50,742 nucleotides of DNA. Source: Synergistaceae bacterium (lineage in GTDB: Bacteria; Synergistota; Synergistia; Synergistales; Aminobacteriaceae). This document shows positions 44,466-50,742 of the stretch, one piece after another. Location of the stretch: NCBI GenBank assembly GCA_017448795.1, contig JAFSKV010000045.1, positions 1-50,742 on the forward strand, given 5' to 3'. Below the pieces are notes generated by a model, which was not told where the DNA came from, did not search any database, and saw only the letters and a list, made by a program, of their open reading frames with translations. A program made the translations under genes and the position numbers. The stretch's first letter is position 1; every line of letters starts with the position of its first letter.

Positions 44466-45223
44466 ATTACACAGCTCCTTTCTTGGTTGAAACAGGGGAC
44501 GAACTCCGCGCCGTAAAGCTCCCGGAGAATTCCCCCCGAAATTTCGCGGCCATGTGAGATTATACGGCCTCCCTTCAGCGCAATGTACCCGTCCGAGTAA
44601 GGCAACGACGCGTTGATGTCATGAACAGCGGCGATGACGCATTTCCCCCCGTAAGCAAGAGTCCTCATGAGCGCGAAAACTTTTGCTGACTTGTCCGGGT
44701 CTAATGCGCTCGTAGGCTCGTCGAGGAGGATTGTTGACGTGTCTTGTGCCAATGCGCAGGCGAGGAAGGCAAGCTGTCTCTCACCGTCCGACAATGTCAT
44801 GATGTCCCGCCCAAGAAGCCCGGTGATGCCGAGTGTCTCTGCTGACCGCTCAACTATCCCGGTGTCCTCACGCGTCAGCCCGGCGAAAATCCCCCTGTAA
44901 GGCAGCCTTCCCATTGCGACAATCTCACGCACGGTGAAGGGGTAAGACGGCCTGAGATTCTTACCGCTCATGACGAAGCTGACAGCCCGGGAAAATTCGC
45001 GCCGCCCGATTCTGCTGACCTCCCGGCCATGAAGCATGGCATGGCCCGAATACCTCATCAGTCCCGCAAGCACTCGTAACAGCGTGGACTTGCCTGAACC
45101 GTTAGGCCCTATGAGTGAGGTGAAGCCGCCGGGGATTTCGAAGGTGATATTTCGGAGGACGGTGTTATTCCCCCAGCCCGCGCTAAGATTCCTGAGACTG
45201 TACACAGTGCTTCCTGAGTTCAT
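44444..45223 (-). CDS. ABC transporter ATP-binding protein, FecE/BtuD-like
   Basis: About 259 residues. Walker A is GPNGSGKST, Q-loop near MSGKNLRPSYPF (Q replaced by K in SGKN, a possible oddity), signature LSDGERQLAFLACAL, Walker B ILLDEPTSALDP, H-loop AAVHD. It matches the vitamin B12/iron-siderophore ATPase group. The ATG at 45223 has no clear ribosome-binding site; GTG at 45205 with AGGA 6 nt upstream is a good alternative. It overlaps the yunG-like gene by 23-41 nt. Confidence 0.85.
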   Translation of the reverse strand: MNSGSTVYSLRNLSAGWGNNTVLRNITFEIPGGFTSLIGPNGSGKSTLLRVLAGLMRYSGHAMLHGREVSRIGRREFSRAVSFVMSGKNLRPSYPFTVREIVAMGRLPYRGIFAGLTREDTGIVERSAETLGITGLLGRDIMTLSDGERQLAFLACALAQDTSTILLDEPTSALDPDKSAKVFALMRTLAYGGKCVIAAVHDINASLPYSDGYIALKGGRIISHGREISGGILRELYGAEFVPCFNQERSCVMWRVLPE

Positions 45224-45632
45224 CCCGAAGGTACTCGTAGCGTTCACGTTTCTCCGTCCGCATGAAGTGAGCCGCCCGCGACTGCTCAGGATTCCCGAAG
45301 TAAGACAGGGACTCGCCGCCAAATTGCTCACTGGTCAGGTCGAAAGTGTAACCGTCAACAAAGTTGTAGCAGTGAACATTCCCGGCCTCAAGTGGGACTC
45401 CGTAAACATGGCCGCCGAAAATGTCCTGGGCGAGGAAGGCAGTTATCGCGCACTGTCCTAACGTGGGATTGTCGGGAGTCCATTCATGACGGAGTCGGGG
45501 AGTGCATGTGTATTCGCACCAGACGTGAAGGAGGGCGGTGTACATGTCGCAGGGGGTGATGATGCCGGGGAAACCGTGTGAGACTGCGCGGACATGGCCG
45601 GAATTTTCCCAGCCGTAAAAGTTGTAGCTCAA
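45183..45632 (-). CDS. YunG-like protein
   Basis: 149 residues. The block TLGQCAITAFLAQDIFGGHVYG, then NVHCYNFVDGYTFDLTSEQF and a basic helical end (EKRERYEYLRDELRK), is typical of the YunG family, small proteins with a Cys-His arrangement recalling papain/transglutaminase folds but no established function. C-H-D order (QC...HCYN...FDLT) fits a possible catalytic triad; this is inference. Its 3' end overlaps the ABC ATPase gene. Confidence 0.7.
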   Translation of the reverse strand: MSYNFYGWENSGHVRAVSHGFPGIITPCDMYTALLHVWCEYTCTPRLRHEWTPDNPTLGQCAITAFLAQDIFGGHVYGVPLEAGNVHCYNFVDGYTFDLTSEQFGGESLSYFGNPEQSRAAHFMRTEKRERYEYLRDELRKHCVQSQES

Positions 45633-45678: not shown

Positions 45679-46953
45679 GTGAAAAAACTTTTTGTGATGA
45701 CGATGATTTTGTTGCTGACGGTGGGAGTTGCTTACGGGTTGCCGTCGCGCTATGACCTGCGGGATTACGGGCGGATGACCAGCGCAAAAAGTCAGGGAAT
45801 CCCCGGCCCGTGCTGGGCGTTTGCGGCGTTGGGAGCGATGGAGTCGAACTGGCTGACTCAGAAGCTCGGAAAATTGCCTGACCTGTCGGAGATGCAGATA
45901 GCTTTCTACTGTTACCGCGACCCGGTGAAGAGCCGCAACTTCACTTCGCGCATAAAGTCCGGGACTCTGGCTCTCGAAGGAAATGTGTTCATGCCAGTTG
46001 CTATGATGTCGAGATTGTCCGGGCCGACTGATGAGCGTAACCTGCCCTACACGACAACACTCACTGACTCGCAGAAGAAGGCGTTATCCCGGAAAGCCCC
46101 TGAGACATTCCGGCGGTCAATGAGACTGCGTGAGGCATATTTTCTGTCAGGCAGCAGCGCGCTCGATGACACTGGCAAGAAGAAGCTCATCATGAATCAC
46201 GGGGCAATAGTCGTGAGCATCTACAACGACCTTGGGAGTTATCGGCTGAGGGGCGGGAATTGGACGTACTTCAACACTTCGCACGGCAGGACAACGAATC
46301 ATGATGTGCTTCTTGCTGGCTGGGACGACAATTTTCCGCGTGAGAGATTTTCCCCGGAGCCGTCGAGAAATGGGGCGTGGCTGGTGAAGAACTCCTTGGG
46401 GCCTGCGGGGTATTTCTGGATGCCTTATGAGCAGTACATGACGGGTGGAGCGGCGTTCATTGTCGAGCGTAACAATAACAGGCTGAGGCATTACGGGTAT
46501 GATGACTTGGGATTTTGCCGGACGGTCAAATATTCGTGGGGTGCAAACACATTCAGGGTTGCGGGGAAATCTGAGACGTTGCGTGAGGCTGCGTTCTACA
46601 CGCCTGCTAACGGCACGGAGTATGAAGTGCGTGTATATCTTCACGGGAAGGGGCGGCCTTCGAGTCCTGCTGACGGTGAGCTTGCGGCGGGTGTTTCGGG
46701 GACGCAGGAATACGCGGGGTATCACACTGTGAGATTGAATGAGAATGTGAGGCTGAACGAGGGGGAATATTTCAGTGTTGCGGTGAGATTGTCGGGGGGG
46801 AATTTCCCGGCGGAAGTGAAGCACAAGGGGTACTCTGAGAATGCGGAAGTGAAGGCGGGGGAGAGCTGGTTTTCACAAGATGGTGTGAGTTGGGCTGACG
46901 GCGTGAGTGTGGGGGGGAATGCGTGCGTGAAGGGGTTCAGTGTGGCGAGGTGA
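45679..46953 (+). CDS. Exported papain-like (C1A) cysteine protease with C-terminal lectin-like domain
   Basis: 424 residues, signal peptide (about 1-20). Mature enzyme starts with LPSRYDLRDYG. Catalytic residues: Q39 (oxyanion), C45 in GPCWAFAALGAMES, H208 in TTNHDVLLAGWDD and N238 in WLVKNSLG. No long propeptide is present. The C-terminal part (about 275-424) is beta-rich, like the lectin-like domain attached to bacterial C1A proteases. It probably works in the periplasm or outside the cell. The start is GTG, with GAGGGTG upstream. Divergent from the yunG-like gene. Confidence 0.87.
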   Translation: MKKLFVMTMILLLTVGVAYGLPSRYDLRDYGRMTSAKSQGIPGPCWAFAALGAMESNWLTQKLGKLPDLSEMQIAFYCYRDPVKSRNFTSRIKSGTLALEGNVFMPVAMMSRLSGPTDERNLPYTTTLTDSQKKALSRKAPETFRRSMRLREAYFLSGSSALDDTGKKKLIMNHGAIVVSIYNDLGSYRLRGGNWTYFNTSHGRTTNHDVLLAGWDDNFPRERFSPEPSRNGAWLVKNSLGPAGYFWMPYEQYMTGGAAFIVERNNNRLRHYGYDDLGFCRTVKYSWGANTFRVAGKSETLREAAFYTPANGTEYEVRVYLHGKGRPSSPADGELAAGVSGTQEYAGYHTVRLNENVRLNEGEYFSVAVRLSGGNFPAEVKHKGYSENAEVKAGESWFSQDGVSWADGVSVGGNACVKGFSVAR

Positions 46954-46963
46954 GAGGGTGAGT

Positions 46964-46994
46964 CCCCTCTGCTGTTATGGCGAGGGGGAATTTT
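46964..46994 (+). terminator. Terminator after the C1A protease gene
   Basis: CCCCTC (46964-46969) pairs with GAGGGG (46982-46987), followed by GAATTTT. The hairpin spans the stop codon of the convergent AAA+ gene. Confidence 0.65.
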
Positions 46995-48237
46995 CCTGAG
47001 AGTCGATTATGCTTTGAAGCTTGTCGGCTATTTCGAGCTTTTCCTCTGACGTTGTCTCTATTTCCTGCATTGTACTCTGCGTGTAATCTGAAGCCTTCGC
47101 AACTTCATCTGCTTGTCTCTTCACTTCCGCGCAAGCCTTGAGGAAATCTTCCTGACTTATCGGTTTTGATTTTCTCGCCGCGTCAACACAAGCATAAACT
47201 ACAGCATTCTTTATGTCTCTCCCGCAAAAAGCATATTCTGCCGCAAGCTTGGCAGTGTCGACATCATCAGAGAGCGGAATACTTATGCCTTCTCCGTGTA
47301 TATGCTTCTCCCATATTGCTTTTCTTGCCTCCAAGTCAGGCTCTGGAATCTTTATGCTTATGAGTCTTGAGATAAAAGCCCTGTCATAATTCACAACGAG
47401 ATTTGTGGCGAATACAACTACACCGTCGAACTTTTCGAGCGAAATCAAAAGCTGGCTTCTCATTGAGTTTATAGCCTGAGCAGAACCTTCTGTTACATCT
47501 GTGAGTCTCTTCGACAGCAAGGAGTCAGCCTCGTCAAGGAACAGTACAGCGTCTTCGCGTTCTGCGGCCATGAATACGGCTTTGACTCTTTTGGGGCCCT
47601 CGCCGTGATACTTGCTCTCTATCTCAGCATAGGATGCCCGGATTATCGTTTTACCTAACTTGCTTGCAACTGCCTCTGCCGCCATAGTCTTGCCTGTTCC
47701 TGGAGAGCCGTAGAAACTTATTGCCGAGGTTGCGCAGGGGACAATTTTTCTCAGACCCCATTCATCAAAAACTTTTTTCTTGACTTCAGTATCTATTCTT
47801 GCGGTTGCGTCTATGATTTCCTCTAAGGTAGCTTCAGGAAGCACAAGCTGCTCGAAAGTGTAATCAGGTTGTTCGGCTTGGTAGTTCCTAGACAGCTTTT
47901 CGATTTCCTCGCTGTCATCCCCGTTGCCATCATCAATTTTGGGATAAAGAATATGAGCTTCCGGCCAGAAATCAGAGTCCAGTTTCTGGTAGCCAAGCCT
48001 GACCTCAACAGGGTAGCCAAAAATTTCCGTGATGGCCTTGATGATGCTTCTGTTGGAATTGGGTATCTGTGCTTCTTCCATTATGCACACGCTGATTTTT
48101 CCGTCATCACTCTTGAAGAAAGCTATATCCGACAAAGGCAGCCTGCCGTAATATTTCCTCAAAGCCTCTCGAAGCTCCAAGCTTATTTGTGGACACTCAG
48201 AAACATATTTTGCCGGCATCTGAATATATACGCTCAT
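46975..48237 (-). CDS. AAA+ ATPase of unknown function
   Basis: 420 residues. An N-terminal domain of about 130 residues without recognised family precedes a classical AAA module: Walker A GSPGTGKT (177-184), Walker B VLFLDEAD (231-238), sensor-1 N279 (FATNL) and arginine R291 (FISRLI). A charged C-terminal helix follows (about 365-420). The pore-loop-like ESKYHGEG (207-214) suggests a hexameric unfoldase or remodelling enzyme. It is the last gene of a four-gene minus-strand unit with three small unknown proteins, which are plausible partners or substrates. AGGAGG precedes the ATG. Confidence 0.8.
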   Translation of the reverse strand: MSVYIQMPAKYVSECPQISLELREALRKYYGRLPLSDIAFFKSDDGKISVCIMEEAQIPNSNRSIIKAITEIFGYPVEVRLGYQKLDSDFWPEAHILYPKIDDGNGDDSEEIEKLSRNYQAEQPDYTFEQLVLPEATLEEIIDATARIDTEVKKKVFDEWGLRKIVPCATSAISFYGSPGTGKTMAAEAVASKLGKTIIRASYAEIESKYHGEGPKRVKAVFMAAEREDAVLFLDEADSLLSKRLTDVTEGSAQAINSMRSQLLISLEKFDGVVVFATNLVVNYDRAFISRLISIKIPEPDLEARKAIWEKHIHGEGISIPLSDDVDTAKLAAEYAFCGRDIKNAVVYACVDAARKSKPISQEDFLKACAEVKRQADEVAKASDYTQSTMQEIETTSEEKLEIADKLQSIIDSQENSPSP

Positions 48238-48247
48238 AGTCCTCCTC

Positions 48248-48541
48248 CTAATTAGTGCTGGTATCTGGCTGCCCGTTGCGGACCTGGATTATCACTTCAT
48301 TAGCACCCTTAGCACTTAATGATCTGTACAGATCACGTCTTGCTTCAAATCTTTTCATGTTCTCGTGCAAGACTCTGAGTAGCTCATTCGCATTTGCAAA
48401 CAGCTCCTTATTTTTCTCTTCTCGCACGCGTGCTTCCTGTTGTGCTTGTGCATCGTATTTTCTCCTGTTTTCTTCACAGAGAAAAAGGATAGCATATGCA
48501 CGCTCAAACAGCTCCTCATTTCCCAGCGGTGTATTTTCCAT
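48248..48541 (-). CDS. Small charged coiled-coil protein, paralogue of the next gene upstream
   Basis: 97 residues, mostly helical, Glu/Arg/Lys-rich, with likely coiled coil over about 15-75. The C-terminal block RDLYRSLSAKGANEVIIQVRNGQ is split from the paralogue only by a few changes (RDLYRSLSDKGANEALVAVR there). No signal or membrane segment. AGGAGGTGAG precedes the ATG. It ends 11 nt before the AAA+ gene. The family is not recognised; the motif may be a recognition or docking tail for the ATPase. Confidence 0.6.
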   Translation of the reverse strand: MENTPLGNEELFERAYAILFLCEENRRKYDAQAQQEARVREEKNKELFANANELLRVLHENMKRFEARRDLYRSLSAKGANEVIIQVRNGQPDTSTN

Positions 48542-48553
48542 AAGCTCACCTCC

Positions 48554-49114
48554 TTAGTGCTGGTATACTTTGACACCTTCCCTGCCGTGTTCCGCTGCTA
48601 TGCGGCTGTCCCTGCTAGTGGCTGTATTATTCACAAGCTTTGTTTTGCTGGTATCTAGCTGCCCGTTGCGGACTGCGACTAACGCCTCATTAGCACCCTT
48701 GTCGCTTAATGATCTGTACAGATCACGTTCTGCTGTGTACTTTTCCACGTTCCCTTGCAAGTCTCTGACCACGTTCCACGCATTTGCATACAGATTTTCG
48801 TTTTTCTCGCGTGCTTCCTGCGGTGTATTTTTTATGGTTGTCTTTATGTACCCTGCAAGTTGTTGTGACTTGTCAATCTGCTCTTCAGCATATTCTTCTG
48901 CTTTGGGAAGGAAAATGCTTATGACTTTGTAGCCCATCGAGAGAAGCCATTCAATGACACCGAAAAACGCATCAAGTACCCACTCTACAACTTCAACTAC
49001 AGCGTCAATCAGCCACTCAATGCCGTCAACTGCACGGTCAGCCAGCCACCCCAAAACCTTACCCTGTACCGGATTCAAGGAAGTATCACGAAAGAAATCA
49101 CCCAGCCATGACAT
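48554..49114 (-). CDS. Protein with hydrophobic N-terminal repeats and the shared RDLYRSLS motif
   Basis: 186 residues. The N-terminal third repeats an amphipathic or hydrophobic heptad-like unit (GIEWLIDAVVE, VVEWVLDAFFG, VIEWLLSMGYK), which could insert in or lie on a membrane. A charged helical middle follows (about 70-130), then RDLYRSLSDKGANEALVAVR (about 131-150) shared with the 48248-48541 product, and a polar tail. GGGGGAGCTG precedes the ATG. Not recognised as a known family. Confidence 0.6.
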   Translation of the reverse strand: MSWLGDFFRDTSLNPVQGKVLGWLADRAVDGIEWLIDAVVEVVEWVLDAFFGVIEWLLSMGYKVISIFLPKAEEYAEEQIDKSQQLAGYIKTTIKNTPQEAREKNENLYANAWNVVRDLQGNVEKYTAERDLYRSLSDKGANEALVAVRNGQLDTSKTKLVNNTATSRDSRIAAEHGREGVKVYQH

Positions 49115-49138
49115 CGTTATCAGCTCCCCCTTGTAATT

Positions 49139-49636
49139 TCACAGAACGTAATCCCCATCAGCAAGTGCTTCCTCAAGCTGGGCATCGAGCGTCTCATACT
49201 GCACGAGGAAACGGTCTTTTACCGTCCCTCCGTCCATAACGAAAGCGGCAATGTACTTGTCATCCCCCAAGCTGAGGTTAGCTTCTTCGTCTGAGCCGAA
49301 AATCTCTCTCACTTTCTCATCATCCAGCCTGAACACCACTGCGTCGCAGCCTTTCCTCTTGTCCTGAAGCCAGCGCGCAACCTCGAGGAAGGTAAGATTC
49401 TCCACGTATGAGGGCTTGCCGAAAAATTTTTCGAGGTTTTCTTGCGGTGTAAGCTCATGCCTCCCGCCTTGCTCGATACGTTCCCTGAACAGCGCAAAAT
49501 GGTCTTTGATTCTTTTCACCGACGCGTTGAAGCGGCCAGTTATCCGGCTGAGTCCCTCAGAAAATTTCTCACCGAGCCTGTCTCCGTGAGTCTTTCTGCT
49601 GCCTTCAGCTTCGTGCTGTTCATCATCGTAAAGCAT
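49139..49636 (-). CDS. Protein of unknown function, first gene of the AAA+ island
   Basis: 165 residues. A charged N-terminus (about 1-60) leads to a compact C-terminal part with TPQENLEKFFGKPSY, EVARWLQDKRKGCDAV, and an acidic end (DAQLEEALADGDYVL). No signal peptide or membrane helix. I start at ATG 49636; the longer frame would cross the promoter region. It precedes the two RDLYRSLS proteins and the AAA+ ATPase, in what looks like one transcript. Confidence 0.6.
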   Translation of the reverse strand: MLYDDEQHEAEGSRKTHGDRLGEKFSEGLSRITGRFNASVKRIKDHFALFRERIEQGGRHELTPQENLEKFFGKPSYVENLTFLEVARWLQDKRKGCDAVVFRLDDEKVREIFGSDEEANLSLGDDKYIAAFVMDGGTVKDRFLVQYETLDAQLEEALADGDYVL

Positions 49637-49678
49637 TGCTGATTCACATCCTAAATGTTGAGTAATGGATAGTGTAAA

Positions 49679-49705
49679 ATTATAGCGTACATTTTTTTTT
49701 TTCAA
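49679..49705 (-). promoter_or_regulatory. Putative promoter of the AAA+ island
   Basis: On the minus strand TTGAAA, a 15-nt spacer that is mostly a run of As, then TATAAT; about 42 nt before the ATG. The A11 run might bend DNA or act like an UP element. The spacer is short. Confidence 0.55.
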
Positions 49706-49723: not shown

Positions 49724-49758
49724 AAAAAAATTCCCCCTCACTCACCAGCGAAGGGGAA
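49724..49758 (-). terminator. Intrinsic terminator of valS
   Basis: On the minus strand TTCCCC pairs with GGGGAA around a loop of about 22 nt, followed by TTTTTTT. It lies 18 nt past the valS stop. Confidence 0.8.
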
Positions 49759-49775
49759 CAATTTTCGTCCTGTTG

Positions 49776-50742
49776 TTACCTGCTCAGGCTCTCAAGATTT
49801 GCCCTCAGACGCTCAATCTGCGCCCTGCCCTCAGCGACCTTCCCGCGTTCCTTCTCCACAACCTCAGCGGGAGCGCGCGCGACGAAATCCGCCTTCCCAA
49901 GCCTGGCCTCACTCGACGCAACCGCCTTCATTATCGCCGCAATCTCGCCTTCAAGCCTCGCGATTTCCTTCGGCACGTCAAGAACATCACCCACCGGCAA
50001 TTTCACTTCAGCCTCGCCGCTCACACTCGACAGCGACGGCCCATAACCCCATTCCCCGGAAGGAGCCTCAAGAATCACGTCATCAATCCTGCACAAGCCC
50101 TTCACCTGACCAAGAGACTCGCTCAGGATTTCCGCCGTCCTCGTACCATTGGCAGCCCGGATTACAGCACGGGGCAATTTCTGCTGGGGGGGAACATGAG
50201 CTTCAGCCCGGAGATTACGCAACGCCCTCACGACATCCTGCAATATCCCCATATCACCAACAACGCCGGGAAACTCGTACTCCTTCACTGGTTCAGGCCA
50301 CGACGAACGCATGATATAGTCATCGTTGAAGCCGAACGCCGCCCACAGTTCCTCAGTAACGAACGGCACAAACGGGTGCAGAAGCGGTAACACTGTCCTG
50401 AATACATGCTCAAGGACTCCCTGCGTTGTGTGTTTGCGGGACTCACCCTCGTCGCCCCTCAAGGCTGGCTTGCTCATCTCAACGTACCAGTCGCACAAGT
50501 CGCCCCAGACGAAATCGTACAGCCCTCTTGCCGCCGTCCCTATGTCGTAAGCGTCGATTTCCTCTCGTACGCTCCGGGCCATCTCCTGAGTCCGGGCGAG
50601 AATGTACTTGTCGTGTAACTGCAACTGCGACAGGTCAATGTCTCTCACTTCGTCGTCAAGGTTCATCAGCGCGAAACGTGAGGCGTTCCACAGCTTGTTC
50701 ATGAAGAAGCGGTATGTCTCGATTCTTGTTGACGACAGGAGA
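49776..50742 (-). CDS. valS: Valine--tRNA ligase, C-terminal part (5' end outside window)
   Basis: About 321 residues of ValRS are visible. They begin in the class I anticodon-binding domain (TYRFFMNKLWNASRF, crossing to the window edge), continue with LYDFVWGDLCDWYVEMSK and PFVPFVTEELWAAFG, and end with the C-terminal coiled coil typical of ValRS (EIARLEGEIAAIMKAVASSE; VEKERGKVAEGRAQIERL). The catalytic Rossmann domain lies beyond the right edge. The last residue before the stop is Arg. Confidence 0.95.
   Translation of the reverse strand, partial: LLSSTRIETYRFFMNKLWNASRFALMNLDDEVRDIDLSQLQLHDKYILARTQEMARSVREEIDAYDIGTAARGLYDFVWGDLCDWYVEMSKPALRGDEGESRKHTTQGVLEHVFRTVLPLLHPFVPFVTEELWAAFGFNDDYIMRSSWPEPVKEYEFPGVVGDMGILQDVVRALRNLRAEAHVPPQQKLPRAVIRAANGTRTAEILSESLGQVKGLCRIDDVILEAPSGEWGYGPSLSSVSGEAEVKLPVGDVLDVPKEIARLEGEIAAIMKAVASSEARLGKADFVARAPAEVVEKERGKVAEGRAQIERLRANLESLSR

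Follow-up and report, generated by a model that had tools for sequence, protein, structure and literature searches.

An AAA+ ATPase island in a Synergistaceae genome and its relatives: a candidate membrane-associated module with a shared C-terminal domain

The island and its four genes

The DNA analyzed here, a 50,742-nucleotide stretch from a Synergistaceae bacterium (hereafter the window), carries four intact minus-strand open reading frames (ORFs) within positions 46975–49636, with intergenic gaps of 24, 12 and 10 bp. They encode CH165 (49139–49636; 165 aa), a charged soluble protein; HYD186 (48554–49114; 186 aa), which is rich in tryptophan and has hydrophobic or amphipathic helices; CC97 (48248–48541; 97 aa), which is charged and probably a coiled coil; and an AAA+ ATPase (46975–48237; 420 aa; Pfam AAA, E = 1e-24). 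The original prediction of a charged, a hydrophobic and a short protein in one run with an AAA+ ATPase of unknown N-terminal domain was thereby borne out. The island sits between the 3′ part of valS (49776–50702, minus strand), which forms the near edge of the slot, and a convergent gene for a C1 (papain-type) peptidase with a lectin-like domain (45679–46953, plus strand), which forms the other edge; both flanks lie outside the module. An intrinsic terminator of valS (49730–49759, minus strand) sets valS apart from the island. At 46.7%, the GC content of the island is the minimum of the window (mean 53.5%, s.d. 2.0, for 2.7-kb stretches).

Upstream of CH165, a possible −10 element, TATAAT, can be read from the sequence at 49679–49684 (minus strand), with a −35-like TTGAAA at 49700–49705. 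Strong ribosome-binding sites precede the CC97 and ATPase genes. The idea that a single promoter serves all four genes is plausible: the candidate −10 element speaks for it, whereas the spacer to TTGAAA is 15 nt and a consensus promoter scan called no promoter at this TATAAT.

The ATPase is, by its sequence, securely a classical AAA+ protein, comprising an N-domain (residues 1 to ~80), an AAA core (~122–377) and a helical C-terminal tail. The Walker A (GSPGTGKT), Walker B (LFLDEAD) and sensor-1 (FATN) motifs and the arginine R291 (arginine finger; second region of homology, SRH) are intact, and KYHGEG resembles a pore loop. In an alignment of 20 ATPase sequences, the catalytic motifs are mostly invariant and an aromatic pore loop, K[YF]xG[EQ]G, occurs in all 20. 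The predicted model of the ATPase has a pLDDT of 83 overall; its N-domain, for which no family match was found, is modelled at a pLDDT of about 90 with strand order β-α-β-β-α-β. The best PDB profile match was a VCP-like ATPase (E = 1.6e-52) and the best PADLOC match was IetA (E = 7e-21); the protein also matches PHROG 3757, whose function is unknown. Because the catalytic motifs and the aromatic pore loop are kept, and in view of its nearest named relatives, we infer that the ATPase is an active threading motor. In the tree it is sister to the ATPase of another locus, L041, with an end branch of 0.58 compared with 0.17 for L041, and it appears to evolve fast.

The three small proteins gave no meaningful match in Pfam, NCBIfam, PHROG or PADLOC. 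Membership of a small protein in some known, unrelated family would have spoken against the original prediction; the profile searches returned no such match. CH165 matches the profile of family A, one of the partner families described below (E = 6e-18), and its residues ~75–165 (49142–49414, minus strand) match the profile of a C-terminal (CT) domain (E = 1.6e-12). In the predicted model, this domain is mostly above pLDDT 80, and residues 76–160 are modelled as β-α-β-(α)-β-β-α. Judged by these matches, CH165 is a family A member that has lost the usual N-terminal transmembrane anchor. In HYD186, W-rich helices at about residues 20–75 are followed by a C-terminal region that is weakly similar to family C, with a weak profile score of 8.4 bits that none of 300 shuffles reached. 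These helices resemble partners in Bacteroidota operons, and similar W/F-rich helices are found in partner proteins of four loci (L098, L099, L102 and L104). For CC97, no orthologue was found.

CC97 and HYD186 match each other over 61 residues with 59% identity (BLAST E = 7e-18). The CC97 copy of this block covers residues 35–95 (48257–48439, minus strand) and contains RDLYRSLSAKGANE; the HYD186 copy covers residues 99–156 (48647–48820, minus strand) and contains RDLYRSLSDKGANE. At the DNA level the copies are 78% identical, with 33 identical, 3 synonymous and 22 non-synonymous codons. A further 30 residues follow the block in HYD186, and CC97 ends before these last 30 residues of the C-terminal region; by this comparison, CC97 is a truncated, partial duplicate of the HYD186 C-terminal region. 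The original prediction had described a shared C-terminal RDLYRSLSxKGANE block and interpreted it as a common recognition tail for the ATPase. The block is real, but it is not C-terminal in HYD186, and among the relatives that we read none showed it in a small protein. On this ground the block is not a conserved recognition tail, and we rejected it as a general ATPase recognition signal in favour of a local partial duplication. The notion of a shared recognition element survives in a changed form, as the conserved CT domain found on most partners.

Relatives, the CT domain and the genomic slot

Strong relatives (E ≤ 1e-22) are present in 13 of 188 Synergistota genomes; the best of these loci (L021–L024) are laid out much like the island, with a CH165-like gene, small genes, a transmembrane gene of ~118 aa and then the ATPase. 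A scan of GTDB genomes yielded 80 loci in Bacillota, Cyanobacteriota, Bacteroidota, Planctomycetota, Myxococcota, Actinomycetota and other phyla. The relatives have sets of small proteins upstream of the ATPase, many with an N-terminal transmembrane helix, and these partners sort into at least four sequence families (A–D), family C being the transmembrane partner that adjoins the ATPase. Co-occurrence of the genes in other genomes, on which the original prediction had been staked, is thus found: an AAA+ ATPase and small partners recur in many phyla. Among viral contigs searched for close relatives, two pattern matches appeared and neither was confirmed as a relative; tblastn for phage relatives returned only two records, both distant.

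The genome from which the window derives holds two further relatives (L027 and L028), both decayed or broken, and the operon of one genome (G094) has undergone deletion and fusion. In a second branch (L038, L039, L123, L159 and L028), the ATPase lacks the N-domain, and after it come a transmembrane protein of ~117 aa and other small proteins; copies of this branch are on plasmids, and a remnant lies in the window's own genome. In another genome (G004, L026, 2505–8991), the gene immediately before a related ATPase, in the same orientation, encodes a 1,804-aa protein that has a papain-like region.

The CT domain was delineated with an iterated profile of about 87 positions, and CT proteins were sought from −5.5 to +2.5 kb around the ATPase. 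Of 78 ATPase loci, the window included, 59 carry one to four CT-domain proteins on the strand of the ATPase, about 154 in total. All except one of the 154 (153/154) are encoded upstream of the ATPase, and the nearest CT gene usually overlaps the ATPase gene or sits within tens of bases of it. The domain ends at most one residue from the C-terminus in 104 of 154 proteins and often stands behind a transmembrane or amphipathic N-terminus; 87 of 154 pass the hydrophobicity threshold for a membrane-binding N-terminus. The profile had no matches among 3,530 opposite-strand ORFs, 391 ORFs of 13 FtsH-type loci or shuffled sequences. A docking element would be expected to sit in this way, at the C-terminus of most components. 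Nineteen loci have no CT domain: some are cut by contig ends, and others occupy a separate part of the tree and have different small partners, as the second-branch copies (L038, L039, L123 and L159) do.

No consistent Pfam or PHROG match was found for 61 representative CT-domain members, and the family A profile had no PDB match. Structure comparison gave a best Foldseek E of 0.11 and a best VIA-align Z of 3.3 (RbcS-like), neither of them significant, and hhalign detected no homology between the ATPase N-domain and the CT domain. The domain is also found on larger proteins. It caps an Hsp70-TPR protein of 700 aa encoded on a Planktothrix plasmid, ends two proteins of ~860–905 aa (L059 and L061), and occurs twice over in cyanobacterial proteins of 244–257 aa. 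On the Planktothrix plasmid, the Hsp70-TPR-CT protein (L121, 1915–4014) is followed by five small CT genes, the ATPase and a HerA-type (DUF87) gene. At L059 and L061, an endonuclease/exonuclease/phosphatase-like protein (weak Pfam match) lies upstream and precedes the large CT protein.

Several relatives have defence-type neighbours, which we report as raw counts without a matched control. WYL regulators occur in four loci and TerB in three; further neighbours include Eco29kI restriction–modification (R-M), ThsA, NB-ARC/NACHT proteins and integrases. Tox-GHH nuclease genes and an M48 peptidase occur near some relatives. Five related proteins, two of them confirmed by Pfam, join Tox-GHH to glycine-rich hydrophobic segments upstream; such proteins lie upstream of the ATPase in L045 and L049–L051, and the L054 protein combines a related C-terminal part with an N-terminal part of another kind. 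A small protein beside Tox-GHH was suspected by eye to be SUKH, and no database match confirmed this. On a Streptomyces plasmid (L160, 3898–9885), two small proteins, a more distant ATPase and a CHAT-domain protein form one run, with Shedu nearby. In the window, no nuclease or other obvious effector adjoins the island, and the nearest peptidase gene is convergent.

The valS flank is found in 36 of 41 genomes of the genus. In one relative (G030), the interval from valS to the C1 peptidase holds a HindIII-family endonuclease and a DNA methyltransferase; three others (G028, G002 and G010) have this R-M pair after valS. The pair, located in G030 at L140 (5643–7423), combines the HindIII-family endonuclease with an N6/N4 DNA methyltransferase; with the loci L137, L143 and L144, it is in or at this slot in four genomes of the genus. 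G009 has other genes between valS and the C1 peptidase plus YunG. In the window, a YunG-family gene (45183–45632) adjoins the C1 peptidase and is syntenic in G009. Because the contents on the valS side differ among relatives, the island lies in a variable slot that is used elsewhere by R-M. The C1 peptidase was rejected as a part of the module, as relatives that lack the island at this position (G009 and G030) have the peptidase in synteny as well; it looks like a host gene. The island itself is best explained as accessory DNA, a horizontally acquired and derived copy.

Proposed function and competing explanations

We propose that a widespread AAA+ membrane module, present in the island as a derived copy acquired horizontally, docks its small partners through the CT domain and is used most likely in conflict or defence; taken as a whole, this reading stands at about an even chance. 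The points that speak for a module are the conserved gene content, the CT domain, the catalytic and pore-loop motifs, the accessory distribution and the slot shared with R-M. A PAN/Cdc48-like ATPase, presumably hexameric, would work with several small paralogous proteins, many of which would bind the membrane by an N-terminal transmembrane or amphipathic helix. Nearly all main-clade partners share the CT domain, the proposed docking element, which would assemble the small proteins at the membrane and, in a few cases, a larger one such as Hsp70-TPR. The ATPase would then grip CT-domain proteins and thread or remodel them or their cargo. In conflict or defence, a membrane-associated effector complex could in this way be kept off, or triggered.

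Docking, the threading of partners and the defence role are what we infer from these comparisons. The setting suggests a role against phages or other genetic invaders, and use in conflict seems more likely than housekeeping; a chaperone role would fit the Hsp70-TPR fusion equally well. The original prediction had entertained a membrane-active effector controlled by a remodelling ATPase. Membrane-active partners run by such an ATPase hold up in a changed form; HYD186 as an effector found no support. The copy in the window could be losing function, with CH165 lacking its anchor, HYD186 matching family C weakly and CC97 truncated. A broader version, which we advance only tentatively, is an undescribed machine that crosses phyla and serves as a membrane-based immune or abortive system, with one AAA+ threading motor, a membrane-anchored CT-domain family, interchangeable effectors and an Hsp70 branch.

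The main rival to the conflict reading, possible though rather unlikely in our view, is an envelope quality-control or membrane-remodelling module like Vps4/ESCRT-III, Msp1 or PspA-AAA+, whose ATPase would disassemble or extract membrane-coating or membrane-spanning partners under stress. Membrane-binding N-termini, with 87 of 154 partners above the hydrophobicity threshold, would suit such a role, as would amphipathic W-rich helices of the HYD186 kind, an ATPase that is probably of the threading type, and an Hsp70-TPR protein with a CT domain; moreover, PspA/Snf7-AAA+ associations in bacteria have been published (PMC11237479). However, neither a Snf7/PspA match nor an MIT-like N-domain was found, and the patchy, mobile distribution and the slot shared with R-M fit a housekeeping stress system less well.

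It is improbable that the module handles toxins or confers immunity to them, the ATPase and its partners holding, folding or releasing a linked toxin such as the Tox-GHH proteins of some Bacillota operons. The joining of Tox-GHH to upstream glycine-rich hydrophobic segments in five related proteins (two Pfam-confirmed) and the different N-terminal part of the related L054 protein are in keeping with it. Yet Tox-GHH is confined to a small part of the Bacillota; beside the window module no such gene was found, none was recognised in the cyanobacterial or Bacteroidota operons, and the SUKH-like immunity reading of the adjoining small protein is without database confirmation. Least probable of all is that only the relatives are functional and the copy in the window is decaying, without a function at present: its fast ATPase (end branch 0.58, sister 0.17), missing anchor, truncated CC97, missing partners and the clear decay of the two other copies in this genome point that way, but its four ORFs are intact, its ribosome-binding sites are good and all ATPase catalytic motifs are kept.

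On the preferred reading of a membrane module with CT-domain docking, the design is simple, an AAA+ motor with several membrane-anchored paralogues that carry one uncatalogued domain. The CT domain predicts members of the complex, even large ones such as Hsp70-TPR that are otherwise unlinked. If docking is true, many hypothetical proteins of the Bacillota, Cyanobacteriota and Bacteroidota would receive an annotation from a single profile, and there would be a new class of machine, for membrane remodelling or defence, to study.

Comparison with known systems

The full-text literature covered, which leaves out preprints and most subscription journals and so counts as weak evidence, contained related concepts only and no description of the module. 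The island ATPase has the AAA core and aromatic pore loop in common with PAN and Cdc48/VCP and is, by that likeness, probably a threading motor. It differs from them in its single AAA domain and unrelated N-domain, and it is linked to small membrane proteins and not to a proteasome. It also falls far below the NCBIfam cut-offs, its best score there being 115 bits (PAN subfamily; cut-off, 500).

In the anti-phage system IetAS, an AAA+ protein (IetA) acts with a protease (IetS). IetA is the best PADLOC match of the ATPase, but the island is without the subtilase IetS and has several small CT-domain partners instead. Membership in IetAS was rejected: the score was 70 bits against the NCBIfam IetA (IteA) cut-off of 510, and the sole adjoining peptidase is the convergent, papain-type C1 enzyme. 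FtsH, which is defined by a fused zinc-protease domain and N-terminal transmembrane helices, was likewise rejected, as no M41 match was found and the 420-aa ATPase ends in a short helical tail.

ESCRT-III/Vps4 (CdvBC) and PspA-AAA+ resemble the module in that a single classical AAA+ ATPase stands beside multiple small membrane-binding paralogues. In contrast to Vps4, the N-domain of the ATPase is predicted to be α/β and not a helical MIT domain, and the partners end in an unnamed α/β domain. With no Snf7/PspA-type Pfam match in the window partners or in 61 related proteins, and no helical MIT N-domain in the predicted model, membership in Vps4/ESCRT-III was rejected.

NTP-dependent conflict systems with a MoxR-vWA core, shared adaptor domains and an 'EAD principle' have been described (PMC7159879, PMC8195603). 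Neither MoxR nor vWA protein is present in the island or among the listed Pfam matches of its neighbours, so membership was rejected here as well. Like the module, the MoxR-vWA ternary and EAD systems combine a regulatory ATPase with components united by a single small domain, in some cases together with Hsp70 and TPR parts. In the module, by contrast, the common domain is C-terminal, α/β and fused mostly to membrane anchors.
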